DNA from: Pseudomonas sp. WJP1
Lineage (GTDB): Bacteria; Pseudomonadota; Gammaproteobacteria; Pseudomonadales; Pseudomonadaceae
Reading direction: 5' to 3'
DNA: 64,000 nucleotides
NCBI RefSeq assembly: GCF_028471945.1
Contig: NZ_CP110128.1
Coordinates: forward strand, 174,501-238,500
Shown here: positions 14,884 through 63,532 of the stretch, one piece after another
Layout of the letters: each line of letters starts with the position of its first letter
Numbering within the stretch: the stretch's first letter is position 1
The notes under the pieces: generated by a model
What the model was told of the DNA's origin: nothing
What the model saw: only the letters and a program-made list of their open reading frames with translations
Databases searched by the model: none
Position numbers and translations under genes: made by a program

Positions 14884-15197
14884 GGGCGAGACCTCCGTTG
14901 TCGGGTTGCAATACGGCCTGCCTTTTGTGGGAGCGGGGTGTATGCAAAATAGTTCTATAAAAAATCAAATCAATACTATTGGGAGATAAGCCAGACCATT
15001 TAAGGCCTCCAGCCAAAACGCATCCAATGCATTCGAAGAATATTTTCGATGCTGGTTATGCATATCGCTCCGCGGGCCCCGTCGTTGCTTGCTTAGGCCT
15101 AAAAGATCTAAAAATGTGAATTTATAGTATTTAAGTGCTGGTCAAGATTGAGCCTACTTTCTGCTCCTCAACGCCGTCGTCACCAGGAGCCGTACCC
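14884..15197. promoter_or_regulatory. atsB / atsR divergent control region
   Basis: This 314-base gap is AT-rich. It includes ATTCGAAGAATAT at 15031-15043 and the palindrome TATGCATA at 15057-15064, both resembling motifs upstream of other sulfur genes here. CysB and an SftR-type LysR regulator are plausible binders by analogy with P. putida S-313. No extra gene is visible. Confidence 0.5.
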
Positions 15198-21263: not shown

Positions 21264-21386
21264 AGGTCGACTCCTTATAAAGGCAATCTCTTATGCAGTA
21301 AATCTTTGTAAAAACATAAATAAATAACCTTAAAGAATATGCACTGCTGAAAAGTGGCTGTGTGTTTTTTGATCAGGAGCCGCTTG

Positions 21387-23759
21387 ATGAGTCCGTTGAA
21401 CCTTGCGTCACCCCTTACACCCCGACGGCTCAAACGCCTGCCCCTGGCCCTGCTGCTGGCGGGGAGCGCCAGTTGGACCCAAGGCTATGCGGCCGAGACC
21501 ACCACAGCCCAAGAGGCCCCGGCAAAAACCGCCGCGGGTCAGGCCAAGGCCGATGGCACTCAGCTGGAAACGGTGACCGTCACCACCCGCCGTCGCGAAG
21601 AAAGTTCACAGGATGTACCGACCCCGATGAGCGTGGTCAGTGGCCAGGTGCTGGAAACCCAGCGGGTCTATCGCATCCAGGATCTGCAGCAACTGGTGCC
21701 CAGCGTCAACGTCGCCTACATGCATGCGCGCCAGTCCAGCGTGTCGATCCGTGGCCTGGGCAACAACCCGGCCAGTGATGGCCTGGAAGGCAGCGTCGGG
21801 CTGTACCTCGACAACGTTTACCTCGGCCGGCCGGGCATGGCGGTGTTCGACCTGATGGACATCGAGCAACTCGAAGTGCTGCGCGGCCCGCAAGGCACGT
21901 TGTTCGGCAAGAACACCACGGCGGGCGTGATCAACATCAGCACGCGGGCGCCGACATTTACCCCGGAACGCAGCATCGAAACGTCGGTAGGCGAGGACGG
22001 TTACTTCCAGACCAAGGGCACCATTTCCGGCCCATTGAACGATGAACTCGCGGGACGTTTTTCCGCTTACCGCACCCGCAGCGATGGCGACATCAAGAAC
22101 GAATTCGACGGCCATGACTTGAACGGCGGCTCACGGGATGGCTTTCGTGGCCAGTTGCTGTTCAAGCCCAATGAAGCATTCAATCTGCGCTGGATCGGCG
22201 ACTATAACGAAGAGGATTCCAGCGCCGGCACCCGCGTGTTGTACAACACCGGGCCGACCATCAATGGCGTCAACCTCTACCAGGCCCGGGCCAATGCGGC
22301 AGGCGCCACGCTGGTCGATGGCACGCATCGCAAGGTCAACCTGAACAACGATCAACATGTCACCGTGCACCAGGGCGGCACGTCGGTCGAGGCAAACTGG
22401 ACGCTGCCGAGCGACTTCACCCTGACCTCCATCAGCGCCTACCGCTGGTGGAACTTCACTCCGCGCAACGATGACGGCCTGAACGTCTCCGCTTACAACA
22501 ACGCCGGCGTGTCAGTGGAGGATAAGCAGTATTCCCAGGAGTTTCGCCTGGCGTCACCCACCGGCGGTTTCTTCGATTACGTGCTCGGCGCCTATTACTT
22601 CGGCTCCGACCTGGACAACAAATCGTTCAGCTTTTACGGCCCACAAGCGGACATCTGGAATGGAACGCCCGCGGGCGCACTGGCCAATGTAACCAGCATC
22701 GGCAAAGGCCACATCGAAACCGACAGCTTCGCCCTGTTTGCCCAAGGCACCTGGCACCTCACCGAACGGTTGGACTTCACCGCCGGTGTGCGTGGCACTT
22801 ATGAAGAGAAAAGCGCCTGGGTCAACCGCAACGCGCCAGTGGGTGGTGCGGCGGTGGCCGGGGCGGCAGCGGCGGTAAGACAAGGTCGCGCCGGGGCTTA
22901 CGACTCCGGTGATTTGAATCAATACAGCTCCAGCCCTTCGGGTCTGCTGAACCTCAGCTATCACTTCACCGATAATGTGCTCGGCTACGCCACGCTGTCC
23001 CATGGCGAAAAATCCGGAGGGGTCAACCTGGCCGTCGGCACAGCCCCGGTCGCCGGCGCCGACTCGCTGCTGATCGGCACCGAACGCGCAAACAATGCTG
23101 AACTCGGTTTCAAAAGCACGCTCTGGGATCGTCGCCTTCAGCTTAACGCCAACGTGTTCTGGACCCAGGTCAACGGCTATCAAACCAATGCCTACGACGA
23201 CGTCAACCGCGTGCAATACCTGACCAACGCCGGTTCCGTACGCTCCCGTGGCGTGGAGTTCGACAGCACGCTGATCCCGTTGCGCGGCCTGACGCTGAAC
23301 ATCAACGGCTCCTACAACGACGTCAGCTACCTCTCCTACAAAGATGCGCCGTGCCCGCCGGAAGTCAGCCTGGCGCCAGGCGCTCCGGCCTCTTGCGATC
23401 TCAGCGGCCATCAGGTGGTCGGCGCCTCGAAATGGATCGGCAACGCCAACGGCGAATACAAATGGAACCTGAGCAACGGCTTCGAAGAGTACGTCACCGC
23501 CAGCTACGCGTTCCGCTCCAAAGCGGTGGGCACGGTGGAAGATTCCGATTTCGGCCAGATCCCCAGCTACGCCGTGGTCAACCTGTCCACCGGCCTGCGC
23601 GGCGACTTCAAGCAGGGGCAGTGGGACGTCTCGCTGTGGCTGAAAAACGCTTTCGACAAAACCTATTACACCACTCTGTGGACCGCTTCCAACGGCGGTT
23701 ACGAAGGCTTGCTCGGGACACCGCGAACCTTGGGTGTGACCGGTCGTTACGACTTCTGA
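21387..23759 (+). CDS. TonB-dependent outer-membrane receptor (SftP-like candidate)
   Basis: The 790-residue protein has a long signal peptide ending QGYAAET, a TonB-box-like LETVTVTTRRREES, a plug domain (with VEVLRGPQGTLFGKN-like signature) and a 22-strand barrel ending in the aromatic residue of RYDF. It imports a bulky ligand across the outer membrane using proton-motive force. Position between sulfatase genes and tonB-exbBD suggests a sulfate ester ligand; P. putida SftP is a comparable receptor. The ATG follows CAGGAGCCGCTTG. Siderophore use is possible but no iron-related gene is nearby. Confidence 0.9.
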   Translation: MSPLNLASPLTPRRLKRLPLALLLAGSASWTQGYAAETTTAQEAPAKTAAGQAKADGTQLETVTVTTRRREESSQDVPTPMSVVSGQVLETQRVYRIQDLQQLVPSVNVAYMHARQSSVSIRGLGNNPASDGLEGSVGLYLDNVYLGRPGMAVFDLMDIEQLEVLRGPQGTLFGKNTTAGVINISTRAPTFTPERSIETSVGEDGYFQTKGTISGPLNDELAGRFSAYRTRSDGDIKNEFDGHDLNGGSRDGFRGQLLFKPNEAFNLRWIGDYNEEDSSAGTRVLYNTGPTINGVNLYQARANAAGATLVDGTHRKVNLNNDQHVTVHQGGTSVEANWTLPSDFTLTSISAYRWWNFTPRNDDGLNVSAYNNAGVSVEDKQYSQEFRLASPTGGFFDYVLGAYYFGSDLDNKSFSFYGPQADIWNGTPAGALANVTSIGKGHIETDSFALFAQGTWHLTERLDFTAGVRGTYEEKSAWVNRNAPVGGAAVAGAAAAVRQGRAGAYDSGDLNQYSSSPSGLLNLSYHFTDNVLGYATLSHGEKSGGVNLAVGTAPVAGADSLLIGTERANNAELGFKSTLWDRRLQLNANVFWTQVNGYQTNAYDDVNRVQYLTNAGSVRSRGVEFDSTLIPLRGLTLNINGSYNDVSYLSYKDAPCPPEVSLAPGAPASCDLSGHQVVGASKWIGNANGEYKWNLSNGFEEYVTASYAFRSKAVGTVEDSDFGQIPSYAVVNLSTGLRGDFKQGQWDVSLWLKNAFDKTYYTTLWTASNGGYEGLLGTPRTLGVTGRYDF

Positions 23760-53803: not shown

Positions 53804-54844
53804 TCAAGCACTCTCGCGCTCGATCACCCGACACTCCAGCAGATTCAAGCGCTTGACCTGATCCTCCACCGGCAGAACCCCCAGGCTCTCCAGCACCCGG
53901 GTTGCCGCGAGTAAACCGATTTCCAGCGCCGGTGGCTTGATGGTGCTCAAGCTTGGCAGGAGCATTTCGGCGAAGGGGTAATCTCCGAAGCCGAGTACCG
54001 CGCAGTCCTGGGGAATGTTCAGGCCGGCCCGTTGCCCGGCCAGCAAGCCACCGGCGGCGAGGTTGTCGTTGGCGAAAATGATGGCGTCGGGTCGTGGTGA
54101 GGCGTTCATCAAAGCCTGCATGGCTTGCTTGCCGGCTTCGAACGGGGCGCGATCGGCATCCGGGGCAAACACCCAGGGCTCAAGCCCAAACTCACGCACG
54201 GTGGCCGCGTAGCCGTCACGCCGCTCCAGCGCACTGAAGTCTCCCGGTGCGCTGTTCTGTACGAATGCAATGCGCCGATAACCCTTGCCATGCAGGTAGC
54301 GCGCGGCTGTCACGCCCACCTCGAAATGCGAAAAGCCGATTTGCAGCGGCTCGCGCTCGGGTCGGTAGTCCCAGGTTTCGATTACTGGAATATCCGCTTC
54401 GGCGATCAGCTTTTCGGTGCCGGCACTATGGAAGTGGCTGGTCAGCACCAACGCTGCCGGCGACCAGCCGAGAAACGCCCGCACCGCGCTTTCTTCCTGT
54501 GTGGCGTCGAAGTAACTCGATGCCAATAACAGCTGGTAACCGTGGCGGCTGAGGGTGTCGCTGAAGCCCTGGATGGTATTGGCGAAGATCGGCCCGGAGA
54601 TGTTCGGGATCACCATGCCGACGATCTTGCCGCGGGCCGACGCCAGCCCCCCGGCCACCAGGTTGGGTACGTAACCCAGCGCCGCGACCACGGCGGCGAT
54701 ACGCTCGCGGCGTTCCGGTGACACCTGGTCTGGCTGATTGAAGTAGCGCGACACTGTGATCGCCGAAACACCCGCCTGCCGAGCCACGGTGTTCAGGGTG
54801 ACGCGTCCGGCGCCACGGCGTTTGCGGGGCTTGTCTTCACTCAA
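53804..54844 (-). CDS. LacI-family transcriptional regulator
   Basis: The 346-residue protein has the LacI helix-turn-helix VTLNTVARQAGVSAITVSRYFNQPD (about residues 15-40) and a periplasmic-binding-like effector domain with GMVIPNISGPIF and IIFANDNLAAGGLL. It starts with TTG after GAGGGATCGCCCG. LacI proteins usually sense sugars or related molecules, which is notable beside organosulfur genes. The perfect palindrome at 54932-54945 is its likely operator, lying between it and the divergent receptor. Confidence 0.88.
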   Translation of the reverse strand: MSEDKPRKRRGAGRVTLNTVARQAGVSAITVSRYFNQPDQVSPERRERIAAVVAALGYVPNLVAGGLASARGKIVGMVIPNISGPIFANTIQGFSDTLSRHGYQLLLASSYFDATQEESAVRAFLGWSPAALVLTSHFHSAGTEKLIAEADIPVIETWDYRPEREPLQIGFSHFEVGVTAARYLHGKGYRRIAFVQNSAPGDFSALERRDGYAATVREFGLEPWVFAPDADRAPFEAGKQAMQALMNASPRPDAIIFANDNLAAGGLLAGQRAGLNIPQDCAVLGFGDYPFAEMLLPSLSTIKPPALEIGLLAATRVLESLGVLPVEDQVKRLNLLECRVIERESA

Positions 54845-54931
54845 CGGGCGATCCCTCTTAAAAACAAAAAGGCATATAAAAGTAATTTTTCAGTATTGGA
54901 CGCTCTATGTGGGGGTTGCCAATACTGATGA

Positions 54932-54945
54932 TGTTAGCGCTAACA
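54932..54945. promoter_or_regulatory. LacI-type operator palindrome
   Basis: TGTTAGCGCTAACA is a perfect 14-base palindrome with the central CG/GC step typical of LacI/GalR operators. TTGCCA at 54916-54921 is a possible -35 box that would place the operator over the -10 region. It supports a receptor start downstream of it. Confidence 0.75.
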
Positions 54946-55050
54946 AAGCGTTCTGTCTGCTACTCGCTCGAGCGAATGCCCAAGACAACTTCACTCGCAC
55001 TGTCGTCGCAGAACGGCAGCGGTTCAGGGCAATTTTCGAGCGGGCAGACC

Positions 55051-57297
55051 ATGCACTTCACCTTTGGGGAATCACAAAAACTGGCGCAATCGATTCGCGC
55101 CGCCACACCACGTCGCACGTACCTTGGCTGGCTGTTCGCCGGATTGGCGGCGTTGCCCGTGCCGGGCGCTTTCGCCGCCGACAACGCCGATCAGGCGCCT
55201 ACCCTCGAGTCCGTGACGGTCACCGCCACTCGCCGCGAAGAGTCGCTGCAGAAAATCCCGGTAGCGGTCTCCGTGCTCGATGGCGAACAACTGGAGCGCG
55301 ACAATCGCACCAGCGTGTCTAGCATCGTCCAGCAAGTGCCATCGCTGAACTTCCGTACCGGCGCGTCGAACAAGGACACTTCGCTGTTCGTTCGCGGCGT
55401 CGGGACCATTTCCACCTCGCCGGGCGTCGAGCCGACCGTGGCCACGGTGATCGACGGCGTGGTCTATGCCCGTCCGGGCCAGTCGACCCTGGACCTGCTG
55501 GATCTGGAGCGCGTCGAAGTGCTGCGTGGGCCGCAGGGCACTCTGTTCGGCAAGAACGCCTCGGCCGGCGTGCTCAACATCACCAGTCGCGCCCCGACCG
55601 CCGAAACCCAAGGCTACATCGATCAGTCGTACTACAGCGGCAACGAAAGCCGCACTCGCTTCGGCCTCGGCGGCAGTCTGATTCCGGGCACGCTCATAGG
55701 CTCGATCACCACGCTGTTCGGCACCTACGACGGCAACGTCGATAACCGGTACAACGGCCAGGAGGTCAACGGTTACAACCACAAGGGTGCGCGCGGCAAA
55801 CTGCAATTCACCCCGAATGACGACCTCACCTTTACGCTGATTGCCGACTACATGCAGTCCCACGACGATGCGCCCAATGGCGTGGTCAGCAAATCCCTGA
55901 CGCCTGCGTTCGCCAATGCCTTGAGCCCGGTGCGGGCGTCCAGTGACAACCGCGACATCAACACCCAAACCCGCACCCACGTCGAGGACATCAACAAAGG
56001 CCTGTCTGGCCAACTCGACTGGCAACTGGGCGATTACACCCTGACCTCGATCACCGCCTGGCGTGGTTGGGACAACACCCAGTATCAGGATGGCGACCGC
56101 TTGAGCACGGTGACCGCGGCGTTCCCAGGCACCGCCGACAAGGGCGACCTGGCCTTCGACCAATACTCGCAAGAGCTGCGCCTGGCTTCACCAACAGGCG
56201 AATTCCTCGAATACGTCGGTGGTCTGTTCTACATGCACGGCAAGGACGACGAGACCTATCAACGCACCTTGACCACGCCTACCAGCGTCAACCGTGGCGT
56301 CGCCGATTACAGCACCAACAGCGACAGCTACGCGGCGTTCGGTGAAAGCACCCTCAACTTCACTTCGGATTTTCGCGGCATCGCCGGCCTGCGCTACACC
56401 CACGATGATCTGGAATACGATCACCGCCGGGTATCGACTTCGGCCACCGCCGTCAGCGGCATTCAGCCTGGCACCAGCAGCTCCGGATCGGTGGATGAGG
56501 ACGGCTGGTCCGGACGTCTTGGCGTGCAGTACGACTTGAGTGATGCCGTCACCACGTACCTGACCTACTCGCGTGGCTACAAAGGCCCGGCCTACAACGT
56601 GTTCTTCAACATGCAGCCACGGGACACCGAGGCGCTCAAGCCGGAAACCTCCAACACCTGGGAAGTCGGTATCAAGGCCACGAGCTGGAACAATCGCCTG
56701 ACCACCAACGTCGCGGTGTTCCACAGCGATTACGACAACTACCAGGCGAACTTCTTCGATACCGTGGCGGGACAAGTGGTGACCCGCCTGATCAACGCCG
56801 GCAGTGTCAGCACCGAAGGTGTCGAACTCGATTACGCCTTGCAGGCCACCCAACAACTGAGGTTCTCCGGCGCCCTGGCCTACACCCGCGCACGCATCGA
56901 CGAATTCGCCTGCCCGGCAGGTGCGGCGGCGTCGTGCAACGTCAACGGCAAGCCATTGCCGTTCAGCCCGGACTGGAAAAGCTACGTGCGTGCCGACTAC
57001 AGCATCCCCTTGGATAACGGCCTGGATATCGAACTGGGCACCGACTTCAGCTGGCAGAGCGAAGTGCAGTACGACATCAGCCAGAACGTCGACACCAAGC
57101 AAGGCGCCTACGGCATCTGGAACGCCAGCGTCGCCCTGGCCGACTACAACAATGGCTGGCGCGTGGCCCTGCTGGGCAAGAACCTCGCGGACAAGTCCTA
57201 CTCACCGCTGCTGGCCAGTGGCGGCAACTACATCTACCGCGCCGTTCCAAGGGACGACGAGCGCTACTTCGGCGTACAACTGCGCAAGGATTTCTGA
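55051..57297 (+). CDS. TonB-dependent outer-membrane receptor under LacI control
   Basis: The 748-residue receptor has a long signal region ending PGAFAAD, the TonB box ESVTVTATRREES, plug motif VEVLRGPQGTLFGKN and a barrel ending in Phe (LRKDF). Three ATGs are possible (54907, 54976, 55051). The first lies upstream of the LacI operator and is unlikely; I prefer the last because it leaves a signal peptide of about 45 residues, but 54976 remains open. A flavin monooxygenase starts three bases after its stop, so they form an operon. The ligand is likely an organosulfur compound. Confidence 0.87.
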   Translation: MHFTFGESQKLAQSIRAATPRRTYLGWLFAGLAALPVPGAFAADNADQAPTLESVTVTATRREESLQKIPVAVSVLDGEQLERDNRTSVSSIVQQVPSLNFRTGASNKDTSLFVRGVGTISTSPGVEPTVATVIDGVVYARPGQSTLDLLDLERVEVLRGPQGTLFGKNASAGVLNITSRAPTAETQGYIDQSYYSGNESRTRFGLGGSLIPGTLIGSITTLFGTYDGNVDNRYNGQEVNGYNHKGARGKLQFTPNDDLTFTLIADYMQSHDDAPNGVVSKSLTPAFANALSPVRASSDNRDINTQTRTHVEDINKGLSGQLDWQLGDYTLTSITAWRGWDNTQYQDGDRLSTVTAAFPGTADKGDLAFDQYSQELRLASPTGEFLEYVGGLFYMHGKDDETYQRTLTTPTSVNRGVADYSTNSDSYAAFGESTLNFTSDFRGIAGLRYTHDDLEYDHRRVSTSATAVSGIQPGTSSSGSVDEDGWSGRLGVQYDLSDAVTTYLTYSRGYKGPAYNVFFNMQPRDTEALKPETSNTWEVGIKATSWNNRLTTNVAVFHSDYDNYQANFFDTVAGQVVTRLINAGSVSTEGVELDYALQATQQLRFSGALAYTRARIDEFACPAGAAASCNVNGKPLPFSPDWKSYVRADYSIPLDNGLDIELGTDFSWQSEVQYDISQNVDTKQGAYGIWNASVALADYNNGWRVALLGKNLADKSYSPLLASGGNYIYRAVPRDDERYFGVQLRKDF

Positions 57298-57299
57298 CC

Positions 57300-58643
57300 A
57301 TGACCCGACAGCTCAAGCTTGGCGCTTTCCTGATGGCGACAGGGCACCACGTCGCCGCCTGGCGCCATCCACACGTGCCGGCCGATGCCGGCCTGGACTT
57401 CGCCCACTACAAGCGTCTGGCGCAGATCGCCGAAGCGGCCAAATTCGATGCTTTGTTCATCGCCGACAGCGTGGCGGCAGCGACTGGGGCCATCGCCAGT
57501 CGCATGGCCCGTTCCGACCATTTTGAACCGCTGACGCTGCTCTCGGCGTTGAGCGTGGTGACCGAGCATATCGGGCTGATTGCCACGGCCACCACCAGCT
57601 ACAACGAGCCGTACCATGTCGCGCGCAAGTTCGCTTCCCTGGATCATCTCTCAGGAGGGCGCGCGGGGTGGAATCTGGTGACGTCCGACAATGCCGCCGA
57701 AGCGCTGAACTTTGGCCGCACCGAGCATCTTGGGCATGCCGAGCGCTACAGCCGGGCGCGAGAGTTTCATCAGGTGGTCACCGGGCTTTGGGACAGTTGG
57801 GAAGACGACGCCTTTATCCGCGACAAGGCCAGTGGAACCTACTACCACCCGGAAAAAGTCCACACGCTGGATCATCTCGGCGAACACTTCCGGGTCAAAG
57901 GCCCGCTGAACGTAGCGCGTTCGCCTCAGGGGCAACCGGTGATCGTACAGGCCGGTTCTTCCGAGGCCGGTCGTGAGCTGGCGGCGCAAACGGCCGAGGT
58001 GGTGTTTACCGCGCAGACGTCGCTGACCAGTGCCCAGGCGTTTTATCGCGACCTGAAAGGGCGTTTGAGTCGATACGGTCGCAGCGACGACTCGCTGAAG
58101 ATCATGCCCGGTGTTTTCGTGGTCGTCGGGCAAACTGAAAGCGAAGCCCGGGAAAAAAATGAAACGTTTCAGCAATTAGTCGAACCCGAGGTTGGCGTGG
58201 CCTTGCTTGGGCGTATGCTGGGCAACTTCGATTTGTCGAAGTACCCGCTGGACGGGCCGTTGCCCGACTTGCCGCTGACTGAAAGCGGTCAGCAAAGCCG
58301 ACAAAAATTGCTGACGGAGCTGGCCGGCCAGGAGCACCTCAGCCTCGCCGAACTGGGTCGCAGGATTGCTGGCGGTCGCGGGCATTACAGCCTGGTGGGA
58401 ACGCCGGCGCAGATTGCCGATCGCTTGCAGGAGTGGTTCGAACAGGGCGCGGCGGATGGCTTCAATGTGCTGGTGCCGCACTTGCCCGACGGTCTGGAGG
58501 ATTTTGCCCGCGGCGTTGTACCGGAGCTGCAACGGCGCGGATTGTTCAGAACCGAATACGAAGGTCGCACGCTGCGTCAGAACCTTGGACTGGCGAGGCC
58601 TTCCAACAGATTTGCGACAAAACCGGTTGAAGATTTCAGATAA
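57300..58643 (+). CDS. NtaA/SnaA/DszA-type flavin monooxygenase
   Basis: The 447-residue LLM-class enzyme begins with LKLGAFLMATGHHVAAWRHP and has SGGRAGWNLVTSDNAAEALNFG and VIVQAGSSEAGRELAAQTAEVVF. It is expected to use reduced flavin from a separate reductase for oxidative C-S or C-N cleavage. It is co-transcribed after the receptor and before an aldo/keto reductase, 20 bases away; reduction of the aldehyde it would release is a reasonable coupling. It is only distantly similar to the 39653-41011 enzyme. Confidence 0.88.
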   Translation: MTRQLKLGAFLMATGHHVAAWRHPHVPADAGLDFAHYKRLAQIAEAAKFDALFIADSVAAATGAIASRMARSDHFEPLTLLSALSVVTEHIGLIATATTSYNEPYHVARKFASLDHLSGGRAGWNLVTSDNAAEALNFGRTEHLGHAERYSRAREFHQVVTGLWDSWEDDAFIRDKASGTYYHPEKVHTLDHLGEHFRVKGPLNVARSPQGQPVIVQAGSSEAGRELAAQTAEVVFTAQTSLTSAQAFYRDLKGRLSRYGRSDDSLKIMPGVFVVVGQTESEAREKNETFQQLVEPEVGVALLGRMLGNFDLSKYPLDGPLPDLPLTESGQQSRQKLLTELAGQEHLSLAELGRRIAGGRGHYSLVGTPAQIADRLQEWFEQGAADGFNVLVPHLPDGLEDFARGVVPELQRRGLFRTEYEGRTLRQNLGLARPSNRFATKPVEDFR

Positions 58644-58663
58644 AACAGACAAGAGAGGATTCG

Positions 58664-59701
58664 ATGACTTACACCGCTGCCGAAAACCGCTACGACTCCA
58701 TCCCTTACCGCCGCGTGGGCCGCAGCGGGTTGGTGCTGCCGGCGCTGTCCCTGGGCCTGTGGCACAACTTCGGCGACAGCACGCCGATCGACACCCAGCG
58801 TGCGCTGTTGCGCACGGCGTTCGACCTGGGCATCAACCATTTCGACCTGGCCAACAACTACGGCCCGCCGTATGGCAGTGCTGAAACCAACTTCGGGCGT
58901 TTGCTGCGTGAGGACTTCAAGCAGTACCGCGACGAGTTGATCATTTCCAGCAAGGCTGGTTGGGACATGTGGCCCGGCCCTTACGGTCAGGGCGGCGGTT
59001 CGCGCAAGTACGTGCTCGCCAGCCTTGACCAGAGCCTGCAGCGCCTGGGCCTCGATTATGTGGACATCTTCTATTCCCATCGTTTCGACCCGGACACGCC
59101 GCTGGAAGAAACCGCCAGTGCCCTGGCTACCGCCGTACAGCAGGGTAAGGCGTTGTACATCGGTATCTCGTCTTATTCAGGGGTGAAAACCCGCGAAATA
59201 GCGGCGTTGCTCAAAGAGTGGAAAGTCCCGTTGTTGATTCACCAACCGGCCTACAACCTGCTCAATCGCTGGGTGGAAAAGGACCTGCTGGACACCACCG
59301 ACGAACTCGGCACCGGCGTGATTGCCTTCACGCCGCTGGCTCAGGGGCTGCTGACAGACAAGTACCTCAACGGCGTGCCGGCGGATGCGCGAGTCAACCG
59401 TCCGGGCGGTGGTTCGTTGCAGGCCGCGCATTTGTCCGAGAGCAACATTGCCCAGGTGCGCGCGCTCAATGAGATCGCCAAGCGTCGCGGTCAGAGCCTG
59501 GCACAACTGGCGCTGGCCTGGACCCTGCGCGATCCTCGGGTGACCTCTGCGCTGATCGGCGCGAGCCGGCCGGAGCAGATTATCGAGAACGTGGGGGCGT
59601 TGAAGAATTTGAGCTTTAGCGCAGAAGAGTTGGCGGAGATTGACCGGTTTGCCCAGGAGGGGGGGATCAATCTTTGGGAGAAGCCTTCGACGGCTGAGTA
59701 A
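58664..59701 (+). CDS. aldo/keto reductase, YghZ/AKR14-like
   Basis: The 345-residue NADPH-dependent reductase has the catalytic tetrad in FDLANNYGPP (Asp, Tyr), SSKAGWDMWPG (Lys) and DIFYSHRFD (His), plus GASRPEQI for the cofactor. E. coli YghZ reduces L-glyceraldehyde 3-phosphate and methylglyoxal. In this operon it may reduce an aldehyde made by the upstream monooxygenase. A terminator follows. Confidence 0.9.
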   Translation: MTYTAAENRYDSIPYRRVGRSGLVLPALSLGLWHNFGDSTPIDTQRALLRTAFDLGINHFDLANNYGPPYGSAETNFGRLLREDFKQYRDELIISSKAGWDMWPGPYGQGGGSRKYVLASLDQSLQRLGLDYVDIFYSHRFDPDTPLEETASALATAVQQGKALYIGISSYSGVKTREIAALLKEWKVPLLIHQPAYNLLNRWVEKDLLDTTDELGTGVIAFTPLAQGLLTDKYLNGVPADARVNRPGGGSLQAAHLSESNIAQVRALNEIAKRRGQSLAQLALAWTLRDPRVTSALIGASRPEQIIENVGALKNLSFSAEELAEIDRFAQEGGINLWEKPSTAE

Positions 59702-59782: not shown

Positions 59783-60985
59783 TTATTTTTTGCTTGGGAA
59801 GCCAAGTATCTCTGCTGTTTCGTTGAAAAATGTATCCCTCGCAGATCTCTTTCTGAACTGCATGTCGATCACCTGCGATTGATCTGGGAGGGTAAAGTAA
59901 CCCTTATCCAAGCTACACAGGCTTTCAAGAATGGGTAGAGGCAGCCCCAATAGCTGTCTCACTTGAGATCGGGAAAGTACCTTATTATCCACGAGCATTT
60001 TCACGCCTTGAGCAATTAACAGCGGCCTTTCAAAATCATAATCGCCATCCATTGGTTCGCCCTTGACCCAACCTCTTGCTGACCTGGCTTTCCACAATCT
60101 CGTTGTCGTGGTGTCGTTGATTATCTCTAGGTCAAGACATCTGCGAACCATCGCTGCCACAGACACCTTCCAGCGTGGCTTCAGAGCTAGCAAGGTATCC
60201 AGCGTAGGCCAGCGAATCTCCCTCAGGAAACTCTCTGCTGGCATTAGGAATGCGCTTGCAAATCGATGTGCCTGTGATTCAAGCAGAGCGTAATTCGATT
60301 CGTACTGTTCCTTGGAAACATGCCGGTGGAGAACGATATGCCCAAGCTCATGGGCCGCATCGAATCGATTTCGAATGCCATTTGCCTTGTCTGCTACAAG
60401 GAGTACATAAGGTCGTTGATCCAGCTCATACCAATTTGATACACCATCCATTTTCAGGTGGCCTAGCGTGGTTCGAGCGCAGACGATCCCCGCATTCTCC
60501 AGAACATGAACGACATTGGGTATGGGAGCGATTCCCAGGCCCCAAGCTTGACGACATTCACTAGCCATTCGTTCGATTTCTTCGTCGGAAATCAGCAGGC
60601 AATTGCTTTCTTCCAGATGAGGAACATTAACGGCGACGAATTCAAGGCTTTCTTGAAGCTTGTATGAGATGTCCTGAAGCCACTCCAAGCGTACCTCCGC
60701 TATTTCTCTCGCATTAGCGGTGGCACTCACTTGTGAGCGGAAGAAAAACGGTGTGTTCTCATTGGTTACGATTTGCTCCTCCAGGAGCCAGTTTTCACTG
60801 ACGCCAAAGACCTCGCATAACCGCTGAAAAGCATCGGCTTCAGGAACCTGAAGCCCGTTCTCCCATTTAGAAATATTTCCAGAGGCGCGTCCCACCATTT
60901 CGGCCAAGGCGGTCTGGGTGATACCACACGTGAGCCGCAACTGTTTGAGACGCTCGGACTGAAAGCCCGCGACTCCAGTTCTCAT
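59783..60985 (-). CDS. XRE regulator fused to ImmA/IrrE metallopeptidase
   Basis: The 400-residue protein has an N-terminal Cro/C1 helix-turn-helix (about residues 10-65; LRLTCGITQTALAEMVGRASGNISKWENG) and an M78 peptidase domain with the zinc motif HELGH in DAAHELGHIVLHRH (about residue 217). ImmA cleaves a repressor in ICEBs1, and fused forms occur with toxin-antitoxin or phage-defence systems. GC and codon use are clearly lower than the flanking sulfur genes. It is preceded by a frameshifted gene three bases upstream, so they form a unit. Confidence 0.85.
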   Translation of the reverse strand: MRTGVAGFQSERLKQLRLTCGITQTALAEMVGRASGNISKWENGLQVPEADAFQRLCEVFGVSENWLLEEQIVTNENTPFFFRSQVSATANAREIAEVRLEWLQDISYKLQESLEFVAVNVPHLEESNCLLISDEEIERMASECRQAWGLGIAPIPNVVHVLENAGIVCARTTLGHLKMDGVSNWYELDQRPYVLLVADKANGIRNRFDAAHELGHIVLHRHVSKEQYESNYALLESQAHRFASAFLMPAESFLREIRWPTLDTLLALKPRWKVSVAAMVRRCLDLEIINDTTTTRLWKARSARGWVKGEPMDGDYDFERPLLIAQGVKMLVDNKVLSRSQVRQLLGLPLPILESLCSLDKGYFTLPDQSQVIDMQFRKRSARDTFFNETAEILGFPSKK

Positions 60986-60988
60986 GCT

Positions 60989-61665
60989 TCACCTCTTGGA
61001 ATTTTGCTCATCATCAGTTAGGTCTTCGATTTCTTCAGCGCGGCGCATCTTATCTCGCAATTTCACCAATTCAATCGGTTTCTGATCAATTGCCTGGTTA
61101 TCAGAGTAGCCCTGAAGAAGCTCTTCGAACGTGCAGTTCATATGGAAGCCTTTACCGTTGAAATAAGGTATGGCCATCACGATCGCCAAAGGCTCTGATT
61201 GATCCGCGGTACGTGGAGGTGGAGCATGGACTACGACAAGCGCATGGATCAATTGTTCGGAAACGGTGTGGGACAGTCCATCGATCCAATCCATCTGAAT
61301 TGAAGCTAACGATTCGTTCAGCGCTTTCAGTTCATTGCGGTGTTTCGCAGCGCGAACTTCTTTTTGCCAAGGCAAAACAACAGACGTAATGCGCAGCTTT
61401 CCCAACTCCAATAGCACGTAATTGTGCCCTTTGGGGTCGGTTGATTTTACGAGCGGATTCCAGCGCTTCATGCCTGCCAAGGCATCCTGAGCAAGTGAGT
61501 GGCGTAAGTGCCCTCGTAGATCTTCATGAGGGGTATGAATCAGGAGGTCCTCTACGACTTTCGTAGCTTTTTGAAAGGTTTGAGGAATCAGGACGCCCAG
61601 TTCTCAAAAAACTCTCGATCGACTTGCGCACGAATGAAACCTTGAATCTCTTCCTTTGTGACCAT
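60989..61665 (-). pseudogene. partner of the XRE-peptidase, frameshifted near its start
   Basis: The upstream part reads ATG GTC ACA AAG GAA GAG for 25 codons (MVTKEEIQGFIRAQVDREFF and ENWAS) and stops at 61588-61590. The remaining 195 or so codons lie in another frame that joins immediately (LIPQTFQKATKVVEDLL onward to NSKR). One extra base in the CC run at 61591-61592 would fuse them into a single protein of about 225 residues. The family is unknown to me; the C terminus is charged. A mutation, a sequencing error, or programmed frameshifting could explain it. A start at an internal TTG (61480) would give 163 residues. Confidence 0.6.
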
Positions 61666-61798: not shown

Positions 61799-62641
61799 TC
61801 ATCGAAAAAACGGCACATCCCCCAACACCGTCGCCCGCTGCATCACCCGCCGCGCTGGCCGGTAATCATCGACCGCATAATGCTGGGTCACGCGGTTGTC
61901 CCAGAACGCTATGTCGTCTTTCTGCCAGCGCCAGCGAATGGTGAATTCCGGGCGGGTCGTATGGGCGAACAGGAACTTCAGGATCGCCTCGCTCTCGGTT
62001 TCCGACAACTCGTTGATCTTCGAGGTGAAGCCCTCGTTGACGAACAGTGAGCGACGTCCGCTCACTGGATGTGTGCGGATCACCGGGTGTGACAGCGGCG
62101 GATTCTTGCGCCGAGTCTCTTCCCACTGGGTCAATGCTTCAGGCGTGTTGCCATAGCGCTCCAGCGGGAACGAGCGAGTGAAGTCGTGGGTGGCGGTCAG
62201 CCCTTCGAGCAGGCTTTTCAAGGGTGCCGACAAGGCTTCATAGGCGGCGATGCCACTGGCCCACAGGGTATCGCCGCCAAACTCCGGCAGCAGCTTGGCA
62301 CTGAGCACCGCGCCCATGGCCGGGGTTGGCAGGAAGGTCACGTCGGTGTGCCAGATCGCGTTGTCACGCACGTCGGTGACGGCGGTGTCGAGGATCAGCA
62401 CCTCTGGCTGTTCCGGTACGTTCGGGTAGATCGGGTGGATGTGCAGGTCGCCGAAATTGGCGGCGAATCGCGCCTGCTGCTGCGGGGTGATCGGCTGGTC
62501 ACGGAAGAACAGCACCTGGTGCTTGAGCAGCGCCTGCTCGATGGCGTCGCGTTGTTCCAGGTTCAGCGGCTGGCTGACGTCGACGCCGCTGATTTGTGCG
62601 CCGAGGGCGGAGCTTAGGGGGACGATGGTCAGGTGGCTCAT
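61799..62641 (-). CDS. tauD: TauD-type alpha-ketoglutarate dioxygenase
   Basis: The 280-residue non-heme iron enzyme has ligands in IWHTDVTF (H98, D100) and TQHYAVDDY (His), and co-substrate arginine in RPARRVMQR. TauD oxidises taurine to sulfite and aminoacetaldehyde. It follows tauC by 57 bases on the same strand. Substrate could be taurine or another sulfonate. ATG is preferred over an upstream TTG. Confidence 0.87.
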
Positions 62642-62698
62642 GGTGGTTCTCTTCAATCCGGGGGCGCCGAAATGTCGGCGTAGTCAGTGCTGAATGTG

Positions 62699-63532
62699 TC
62701 AGTGAGCCTGGCCGTGCCATGGCACCAGTTTGCGTTGCAGGGCACGCAGGCCCATCTCCATGGCGAAGGCAATCAGCGCGATCACCAGAATCCCCAGCAC
62801 CACCACATCGGTGACCAGGAACTGCGCAGCCGACTGCACCATGAAACCCAGGCCGCTGGTGGCGGCAATCAATTCGGCGGCCACCAGCGTCGACCAACCC
62901 ACGCCCAGGCCAATGCGCACGCCAGTCAAGATGTCCGGCAAGGCGCTCGGCAGAATCACATGGCGGATCAGTTGTGCGCGGGTCGCGCCCAGTGACTGCG
63001 CGGCGCGCAATTTGGCCGGGTCGACGGTTCGCACACCAGTGGCGGTGGCGATGGCTATCGGGGCGAAAATGGCCAGGTAGATCAACAGCACTTTCGACAA
63101 CTCGCCGATACCGCACCAGATCACGATCAGCGGCAGGTAAGCCAGCGGTGGAATAGGGCGGTAGAACTCGATCAACGGATCCAGCACGCCTCGGGCAATA
63201 CGGTTGGCACCGATGGCAATGCCAACCGGCACGGCGGTCAGCACCGCAAAGCCGAGCCCCAAGCCAATGCGGCTGAGGCTCGCGCCCAAGTGCTGCCACA
63301 AGGTCGAATCCATGTAGCCGCTGGTGACCAACAGCCAGCCTTTTTGCAGCACGGCGGACGGTGGCGGCAGGAACAGAGGTTCGATCAAGCCAGTCGCCGT
63401 GACGGCCCACCAAATGACAACGAGCGCGACCAGCGTCAGCACACTGATCCAGCGGGTGCTCAAACTGCGGCGCAGTGGAATGACCGTAGTGCCTGGTTTG
63501 ACCGCCGCGGCGGGAATTTCGTAGCTGCTCAT
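62699..63532 (-). CDS. tauC: taurine-type ABC permease TauC
   Basis: The 277-residue protein has six membrane segments and the EAA-like loop [25 protein letters not shown] near residue 180. It forms the pore with TauB and TauA. It overlaps tauB by four bases. tauA would lie beyond the window. Confidence 0.9.

Follow-up and report, generated by a model that had tools for sequence, protein, structure and literature searches.

A LacI-linked receptor, monooxygenase and reductase locus in Pseudomonas sp. WJP1, probably a variant of the ssu operon of Xanthomonas

The locus described here lies in a 64,000-nt stretch of the Pseudomonas sp. WJP1 genome (NZ_CP110128.1). This whole stretch is called the window, and coordinates are given in its numbering. 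Four genes make up the locus:

53804..54844, minus strand: LacI-family regulator (PF00356 and PF13377)
54907..57297 (probable true start 55051), plus strand: TonB-dependent outer-membrane receptor (PF07715 and PF00593)
57300..58643, plus strand: FMNH2-dependent LLM (flavin enzyme) monooxygenase of the NtaA/DmoA family (PF00296 and TIGR03860)
58664..59701, plus strand: aldo/keto reductase (AKR) of the AKR14 (YghZ) group (PF00248 and NF007388)

Open reading frames (ORFs) and domain profiles bear out a preliminary description of this DNA as to the presence, order and families of the four genes. Its spacing held for the 20 bases between the LLM and AKR genes; the receptor and LLM genes, given there as 3 bases apart, are separated by 2 bases, counted between stop and start (57298-57299).

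We asked how widely this arrangement is kept. A scan of named genomes, from which the best 80 of at least 596 relatives were retained, gave 20 loci among those 80 in which the LacI protein and the receptor both exceeded 50% identity. Among 297 Pseudomonas genomes, 102 had an LLM match at E <= 1e-150; 95 of these carry a close-type LLM (at least 72% identity, counted by hand) and the remaining 7 have nothing closer than paralogues at 56-60%. We read 54 of the 95 close-type loci, up to 20 kb each, and six paralogue loci as a contrast. Since the order LacI-receptor-LLM was found in all 54 loci read, it is not a matter of chance. The AKR gene follows within 3.5 kb in 41 of the 54, starting no more than 171 bases past the end of the LLM match in 30 cases and about 1.1-1.4 kb on in 11, and an SsuA-type binding protein lies within 4.5 kb in 40 of the 54. 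The conserved arrangement upholds the preliminary description's view of the genes as a single unit. The six paralogue loci showed neither a LacI protein or receptor above 45% identity nor the palindrome described below. Two relatives are interrupted by sequencing error or decay: the receptor is split across two reading frames in L152, and an internal stop breaks the LLM of L172. A PETase/PAF-acetylhydrolase-like hydrolase is encoded in the operon of 4 of the 54 loci and in Duganella (L064), its family having been tested in L018 (11324-12664) and L064 (11269-12501) only; its presence hints at an ester-linked substrate.

The control region between the LacI and receptor genes has the following features:

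54870..54897, plus strand: conserved AT-rich box just 5' of the candidate -35 element, from an alignment of copies
54896..54926, plus strand: candidate promoter, TTGGAC (54896-54901) and AATACT (54921-54926) with a 19-base spacer, read from the sequence and aligned copies
54932..54945, no strand assigned: perfect palindrome TGTTAGCGCTAACA, predicted as the probable LacI operator, a single exact genome match
54964..54975, no strand assigned: TCGCTCGAGCGA, another palindrome, located within the receptor leader and conserved across Pseudomonas

The LacI protein carries both the LacI helix-turn-helix and the periplasmic-binding-like domain, and its best NCBIfam model is Pseudomonas GntR (267.4 bits, below the cut-off of 400). 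An exact match to TGTTAGCGCTAACA occurs once in the 7.0-Mb genome, with one other site at two mismatches. Its core, GTTAGCGCTAAC, counted in a fixed-size interval between LacI and receptor, is present in that gap in 52 of the 54 loci and absent elsewhere in them; it occurs twice in 9 of the 54, and the remaining 2 loci have single-mismatch copies. In the window, GTTAGCGCTAAC lies a short way past the candidate -10 element. Because the palindrome is unique in the genome and its core recurs in the LacI/receptor gap, TGTTAGCGCTAACA is a probable dedicated operator of the LacI protein. Different near-palindromes, GGGTACCGGTACCA and TGGTAGCGCTAGCA, lie downstream of LacI in the LacI/receptor gap of Duganella (L064) and Solimonas (L030), and are perhaps operators that changed together with their LacI.

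The position of the palindrome also bears on the start of the receptor. As the ATG at 54907 is upstream of the palindrome, and a sequence that looks by eye like a signal peptide begins at 55051, translation probably starts at 55051. Starts at 54907 or 54931 are disfavoured, as the leader keeps its DNA sequence in L014 but stands there in a different frame; given that change of frame, TCGCTCGAGCGA is conserved as DNA or RNA.

The AT-rich box together with the promoter core was present in 40 of 57 aligned copies; several P. putida-type copies, aligned at their other palindrome, have no visible box. We built a matrix from 25 distinct copies of the box and scanned it over 239.7 kb of the organism's own sequence. 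The best other match, at window position 15104 (26.5 bits), closely precedes a gene at 15135 that encodes an SsuA-like protein (TIGR01728, 147.6 bits, below the cut-off of 163.5), and none of 300 column permutations reached this score, the highest giving 26.2 bits. The box is a possible activator site, of a CysB-like kind.

The unit had been tentatively assigned a sulfonate role in the preliminary description, and that assignment is supported by SsuA-type proteins in the operons of relatives, by the ssuA phenotype of X. citri and by the sulfur island around the locus. We scored five SsuA-type binding proteins with NF008588, a model of sulfonate SsuA (cut-off 299). Four exceeded the cut-off, with 516.5, 507.5, 488.0 and 334.7 bits; three of the four come from operons (L018, L012 and L023), and the other lies next to LacI in Duganella (L064). 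The fifth, from Solimonas (L030), reached 79.3 bits, below the cut-off. In that locus the genes divergent from LacI encode a TauD relative, an SsuA relative, the receptor, the LLM, an AKR-like stretch with a stop codon inside the matched range, permease-like stretches and an ATPase.

Receptor, LLM and AKR recur in Xanthomonas, the genus of L027, where close AKR relatives were found in 23 of 35 genomes. We read 19 of these 23 loci (18 plus L027), and all 19 have the order LLM-AKR-SsuA-SsuC-SsuB. The receptor is also present in 18, the nineteenth (L233) ending at a contig edge just before the LLM, so that receptor, LLM and AKR are consecutive in 18 of 19 loci, as they are in the window. Identity to the window proteins is 74-76% for the LLM and 81-83% for the AKR (19 loci) and 59-62% for the receptor (18 loci). 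The SsuA of the Xanthomonas operons is related to the SsuAs of the Pseudomonas operons and is 94-98% identical, over the matched stretch, to the X. citri protein of solved structure 3e4r. Compared with this Xanthomonas ssu2-type operon, the window copy is without SsuA, SsuC and SsuB and adds LacI and the palindrome.

The X. citri ssu operon (ssu2, ssuDEACB) was reported to comprise Xac3200, Xac3199, Xac3198 and the genes that follow (PMC3839906, PMC4501297). Its SsuA was stabilised by MOPS, MES, CHES and HEPES and not by taurine, and an ssuA mutant failed to grow when HEPES, MOPS or MES was the only source of sulfur (PMC3839906). Xac3200 was named as a nitriloacetate monooxygenase, and the name "SsuE2" was given to Xac3199, an oxidoreductase with no identity to SsuE (PMC4501297); within the monooxygenase-oxidoreductase-SsuACB operon the oxidoreductase was assigned the role of flavin reductase (PMC3839906, PMC4501297). 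The top PDB match of the window AKR, at 631 bits, is 9nz6, an "Oxidoreductase isolated from Xanthomonas citri pv. citri A306", and the AKRs of the 19 Xanthomonas operons are 92-97% identical to it. On the strength of that identity, "SsuE2" is most likely an AKR of the window type rather than a flavin reductase; from gene order and identity we infer that 9nz6 would be Xac3199 itself and Xac3200 the receptor-linked LLM. The suggestion in the preliminary description that the system is undescribed thus stands in part. The monooxygenase-oxidoreductase-SsuACB operon has been published in X. citri, but the literature matches listed, which led to the X. citri papers, include no LacI- or receptor-linked version of the gene set. 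The word "TonB" is absent from the main text of each X. citri paper (PMC3839906, PMC4501297), where LacI was not searched.

We consider it reasonably likely that the locus is a LacI-repressed operon, probably activated by sulfur starvation, that corresponds in Pseudomonas to the ssu operon of Xanthomonas, as a variant of it, and serves to import and oxidatively desulfonate a bulky sulfonate. A sulfonate as substrate is supported because the Xanthomonas operon pairs receptor, LLM and AKR with SsuACB, and X. citri SsuA is needed for growth on sulfonates. The receptor would bring the sulfonate across the outer membrane, and passage through the inner membrane would fall to an SsuABC or TauABC system whose genes lie at another place in the genome. 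The LLM would then cleave the C-S bond to give sulfite and an aldehyde, with reduced FMN supplied by the SsuE that is encoded elsewhere in this genome, and the AKR would reduce the aldehyde to an alcohol. LacI would bind the palindrome until released by the substrate or product, and a sulfur-starvation activator, probably CysB, would act at the AT-rich box. The sulfonate-scavenging logic is common to E. coli ssuEADCB and P. fluorescens MsuD, as are SsuA relatives (2x26), but the window locus has an LLM of another family, without equivalents of W195 and R225, and adds a receptor, LacI and AKR.

Several findings weigh against this interpretation. The window operon encodes no binding protein, permease or ATPase (SsuA, SsuC, SsuB), and the nearest binding protein in the genome, 45% identical, adjoins SsuD. 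The stretches read at the 19 Xanthomonas loci contain no LacI match and no GTTAGCGCTAAC palindrome, the best LacI match in the L027 genome being 34% identical and on a different contig. A second, SsuD-type operon is also present in X. citri (PMC4501297), and for this reason the ssuA phenotype is not proof that the receptor-linked LLM desulfonates. Most PDB matches of the receptor are receptors for siderophores, haem or colicins. A wide regulon is disfavoured by the AT-rich box core, which has no second genome match at one mismatch or fewer and, at two mismatches, 4 matches, fewer than a control pattern. The AKR occurs without a close-type LLM in 109 of the 297 Pseudomonas genomes, and we therefore reject the idea that it is dedicated to the LLM. 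Finally, the sulfonate site of MsuD includes W195, R225 and the loop residue R296 (RGGA) (PMC8234197), and the LLM has A238 and G271 at the positions of W195 and R225, so that binding of the SsuD type is not visible in it. These residues were matched by a hidden Markov model (HMM) alignment to the organism's own SsuD, with equivalence to MsuD taken from motif and numbering, and the alignment stopped before the R296 loop. A nearly invariant R360-G361-H362 in the LLM is a candidate counterpart of that loop of MsuD (7jw9).

The missing tryptophan and arginine lend some weight to a different chemistry. The LLM would then resemble CmoJ and BdsA/DszA in having a thioether, sulfoxide or sulfone as its substrate, while an accompanying or downstream sulfonate would be the cargo of the sulfonate transporter. 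The LLM belongs to the NtaA/DmoA family (TIGR03860, 601.8 bits, cut-off 279.7) and not to the SsuD/MsuD alkanesulfonate monooxygenases (TIGR03565, 66.9 bits, cut-off 518.2). The solved structures closest to its AlphaFold model (mean pLDDT 91.3) are those of CmoJ, which acts on S-alkyl compounds, of an NTA-type enzyme from Burkholderia and of BdsA, a sulfone monooxygenase; CmoJ (YtnJ) and BdsA/DszA share its family and fold at about 39-43% identity in the fold comparison. Several distant relatives are, moreover, flanked by SfnB genes. In a 47-row tree, however, 13 receptor-linked LLMs (from Pseudomonas, a bin named Paucimonas, Xanthomonas, Solimonas and Duganella) fall on one side of a branch with support 98/97, and this clade is accompanied in Xanthomonas by SsuA, SsuC and SsuB and, at the 40 Pseudomonas loci noted above, by SsuA-type proteins. 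We judge action on a thioether, sulfoxide or sulfone unlikely. Far more so is an EDTA/NTA-like route, in which the receptor would import a metal chelate and the LLM would cleave a C-N bond: the NtaA/DmoA family name, EmoA as a structural relative and the siderophore receptors matched by the receptor point to it, but the sulfonate transport genes that accompany the clade and the sulfur-island setting make it very improbable.

The preliminary description had compared the locus with the sulfoquinovose monooxygenase (sulfo-ASMO) pathway. In that pathway a flavin monooxygenase (SmoC/SquD) works with an aldo/keto reductase (SmoB/SquF) (PMC9594981, PMC12890257), a logic common to the window, in which both enzymes come from other subfamilies. 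For the LLM, a subfamily different from that of SmoC had been correctly foreseen: it is of the TIGR03860 type, its sequence match to SmoC (7oh2) is just 38.9 bits, and MsuD and SmoC are far down its fold ranking, 7oh2 at Foldseek rank 45. The AKR is a member of the AKR14 group, scoring 548.8 bits (cut-off 448) against NF007388 (L-glyceraldehyde 3-phosphate reductase, YghZ), with about 47 bits against 7bby/7bbz, which we take to be SmoB; its structure model (mean pLDDT 72.9) served only for reading entry titles. GH31 is the usual type of sulfoquinovosidase, and the genome has no match to PF01055 (a control search found it in 6 of 14 genomes; GH188 was not searched).

Nor is the AKR tied to the operon. 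It is present in 203 of the 297 Pseudomonas genomes and the close-type LLM in 95, with both in 94 (Fisher p 1.5e-18, uncorrected for relatedness); its next match in the WJP1 genome is 36% identical. All 13 genomes with the operon but no AKR in it hold an AKR elsewhere, 89-96% identical. At 10 such places, read from these 13 genomes, the AKR was in every case downstream of CysE (identified by eye) and a BCCT transporter, at distances of up to about 4 kb, and a convergent tauD lay within 3 kb in 9 of the 10. Since the AKR elsewhere sits downstream of that transporter, the LacI-receptor-LLM block of the window lineage stands between the transporter and the AKR.

With both enzymes outside the sulfo-ASMO families, no GH31 found and the AKR widespread without the LLM, we set aside the sulfoquinovose route as the leading interpretation, and the sugar-like substrate proposed with it finds no support in the enzymes; the sole hints of it are the family of the regulator, LacI, and the presence of the receptor. 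An analogue of the route for a sulfo-sugar is improbable. The LacI-type regulator, the receptor, the monooxygenase-AKR pair and the plant-associated hosts among the record titles of relatives favour it, but the sulfonates reported for X. citri are non-sugars (PMC3839906).

A further proposal, which we regard as doubtful, is that the receptor-linked NtaA/DmoA-type LLMs are a second family of truly sulfonate-cleaving flavin enzymes, binding sulfonates without the SsuD Trp/Arg site, and that the Pseudomonas substrate is a polyhydroxylated plant sulfonate, imported through the TonB-dependent receptor and sensed by LacI, such as a sulfoquinovose glycoside or dihydroxypropanesulfonate. If this were true, desulfonation of dihydroxypropanesulfonate would yield glyceraldehyde, on which an AKR of the type of L-glyceraldehyde-3-phosphate reductase could act. 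NTA-type enzymes have been proposed as desulfonases in Gordonia from expression evidence (PMC7661421, PMC11022551). In aerobic soils, available sulfur consists mostly of organosulfur compounds (PMC3839906), and the X. citri authors describe the real plant sulfonates as unknown (PMC5623697). To an ssu2-type operon hitherto read as an ABC transporter and a two-component enzyme, the window genes contribute three new elements, namely an importer in the outer membrane, a probable dedicated repressor with its mapped palindrome, and a retyped reductase, and LacI would offer a direct handle on the natural substrate.

Downstream of the AKR lies a convergent tau cluster:

61799..62656, minus strand: taurine dioxygenase TauD (NF007104, 497.2 bits, cut-off 313)
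62699..63532, minus strand: taurine permease TauC (NF007545, 380 bits, cut-off 342)

Past the end of the window, TauC is followed by ORFs for an ABC ATPase and a binding protein. The interval between the AKR and tauD (59783-61480) holds an XRE/ImmA-IrrE gene and a 163-aa ORF at a GC content of 0.49, against 0.62 around it; in close relatives (e.g., L010 and L180) tauD comes within about 250 bases after the AKR. On the other side of the locus, positions 2793-49384 form a sulfur island with a sulfate-binding protein, sulfatase-like genes, an SsuA-like protein, a TauD-like dioxygenase, SfnB, D-cysteine desulfhydrase and a gene that by eye is CysE-like. A second TonB receptor in this island (21354-23759) is 32% identical to that of the operon.

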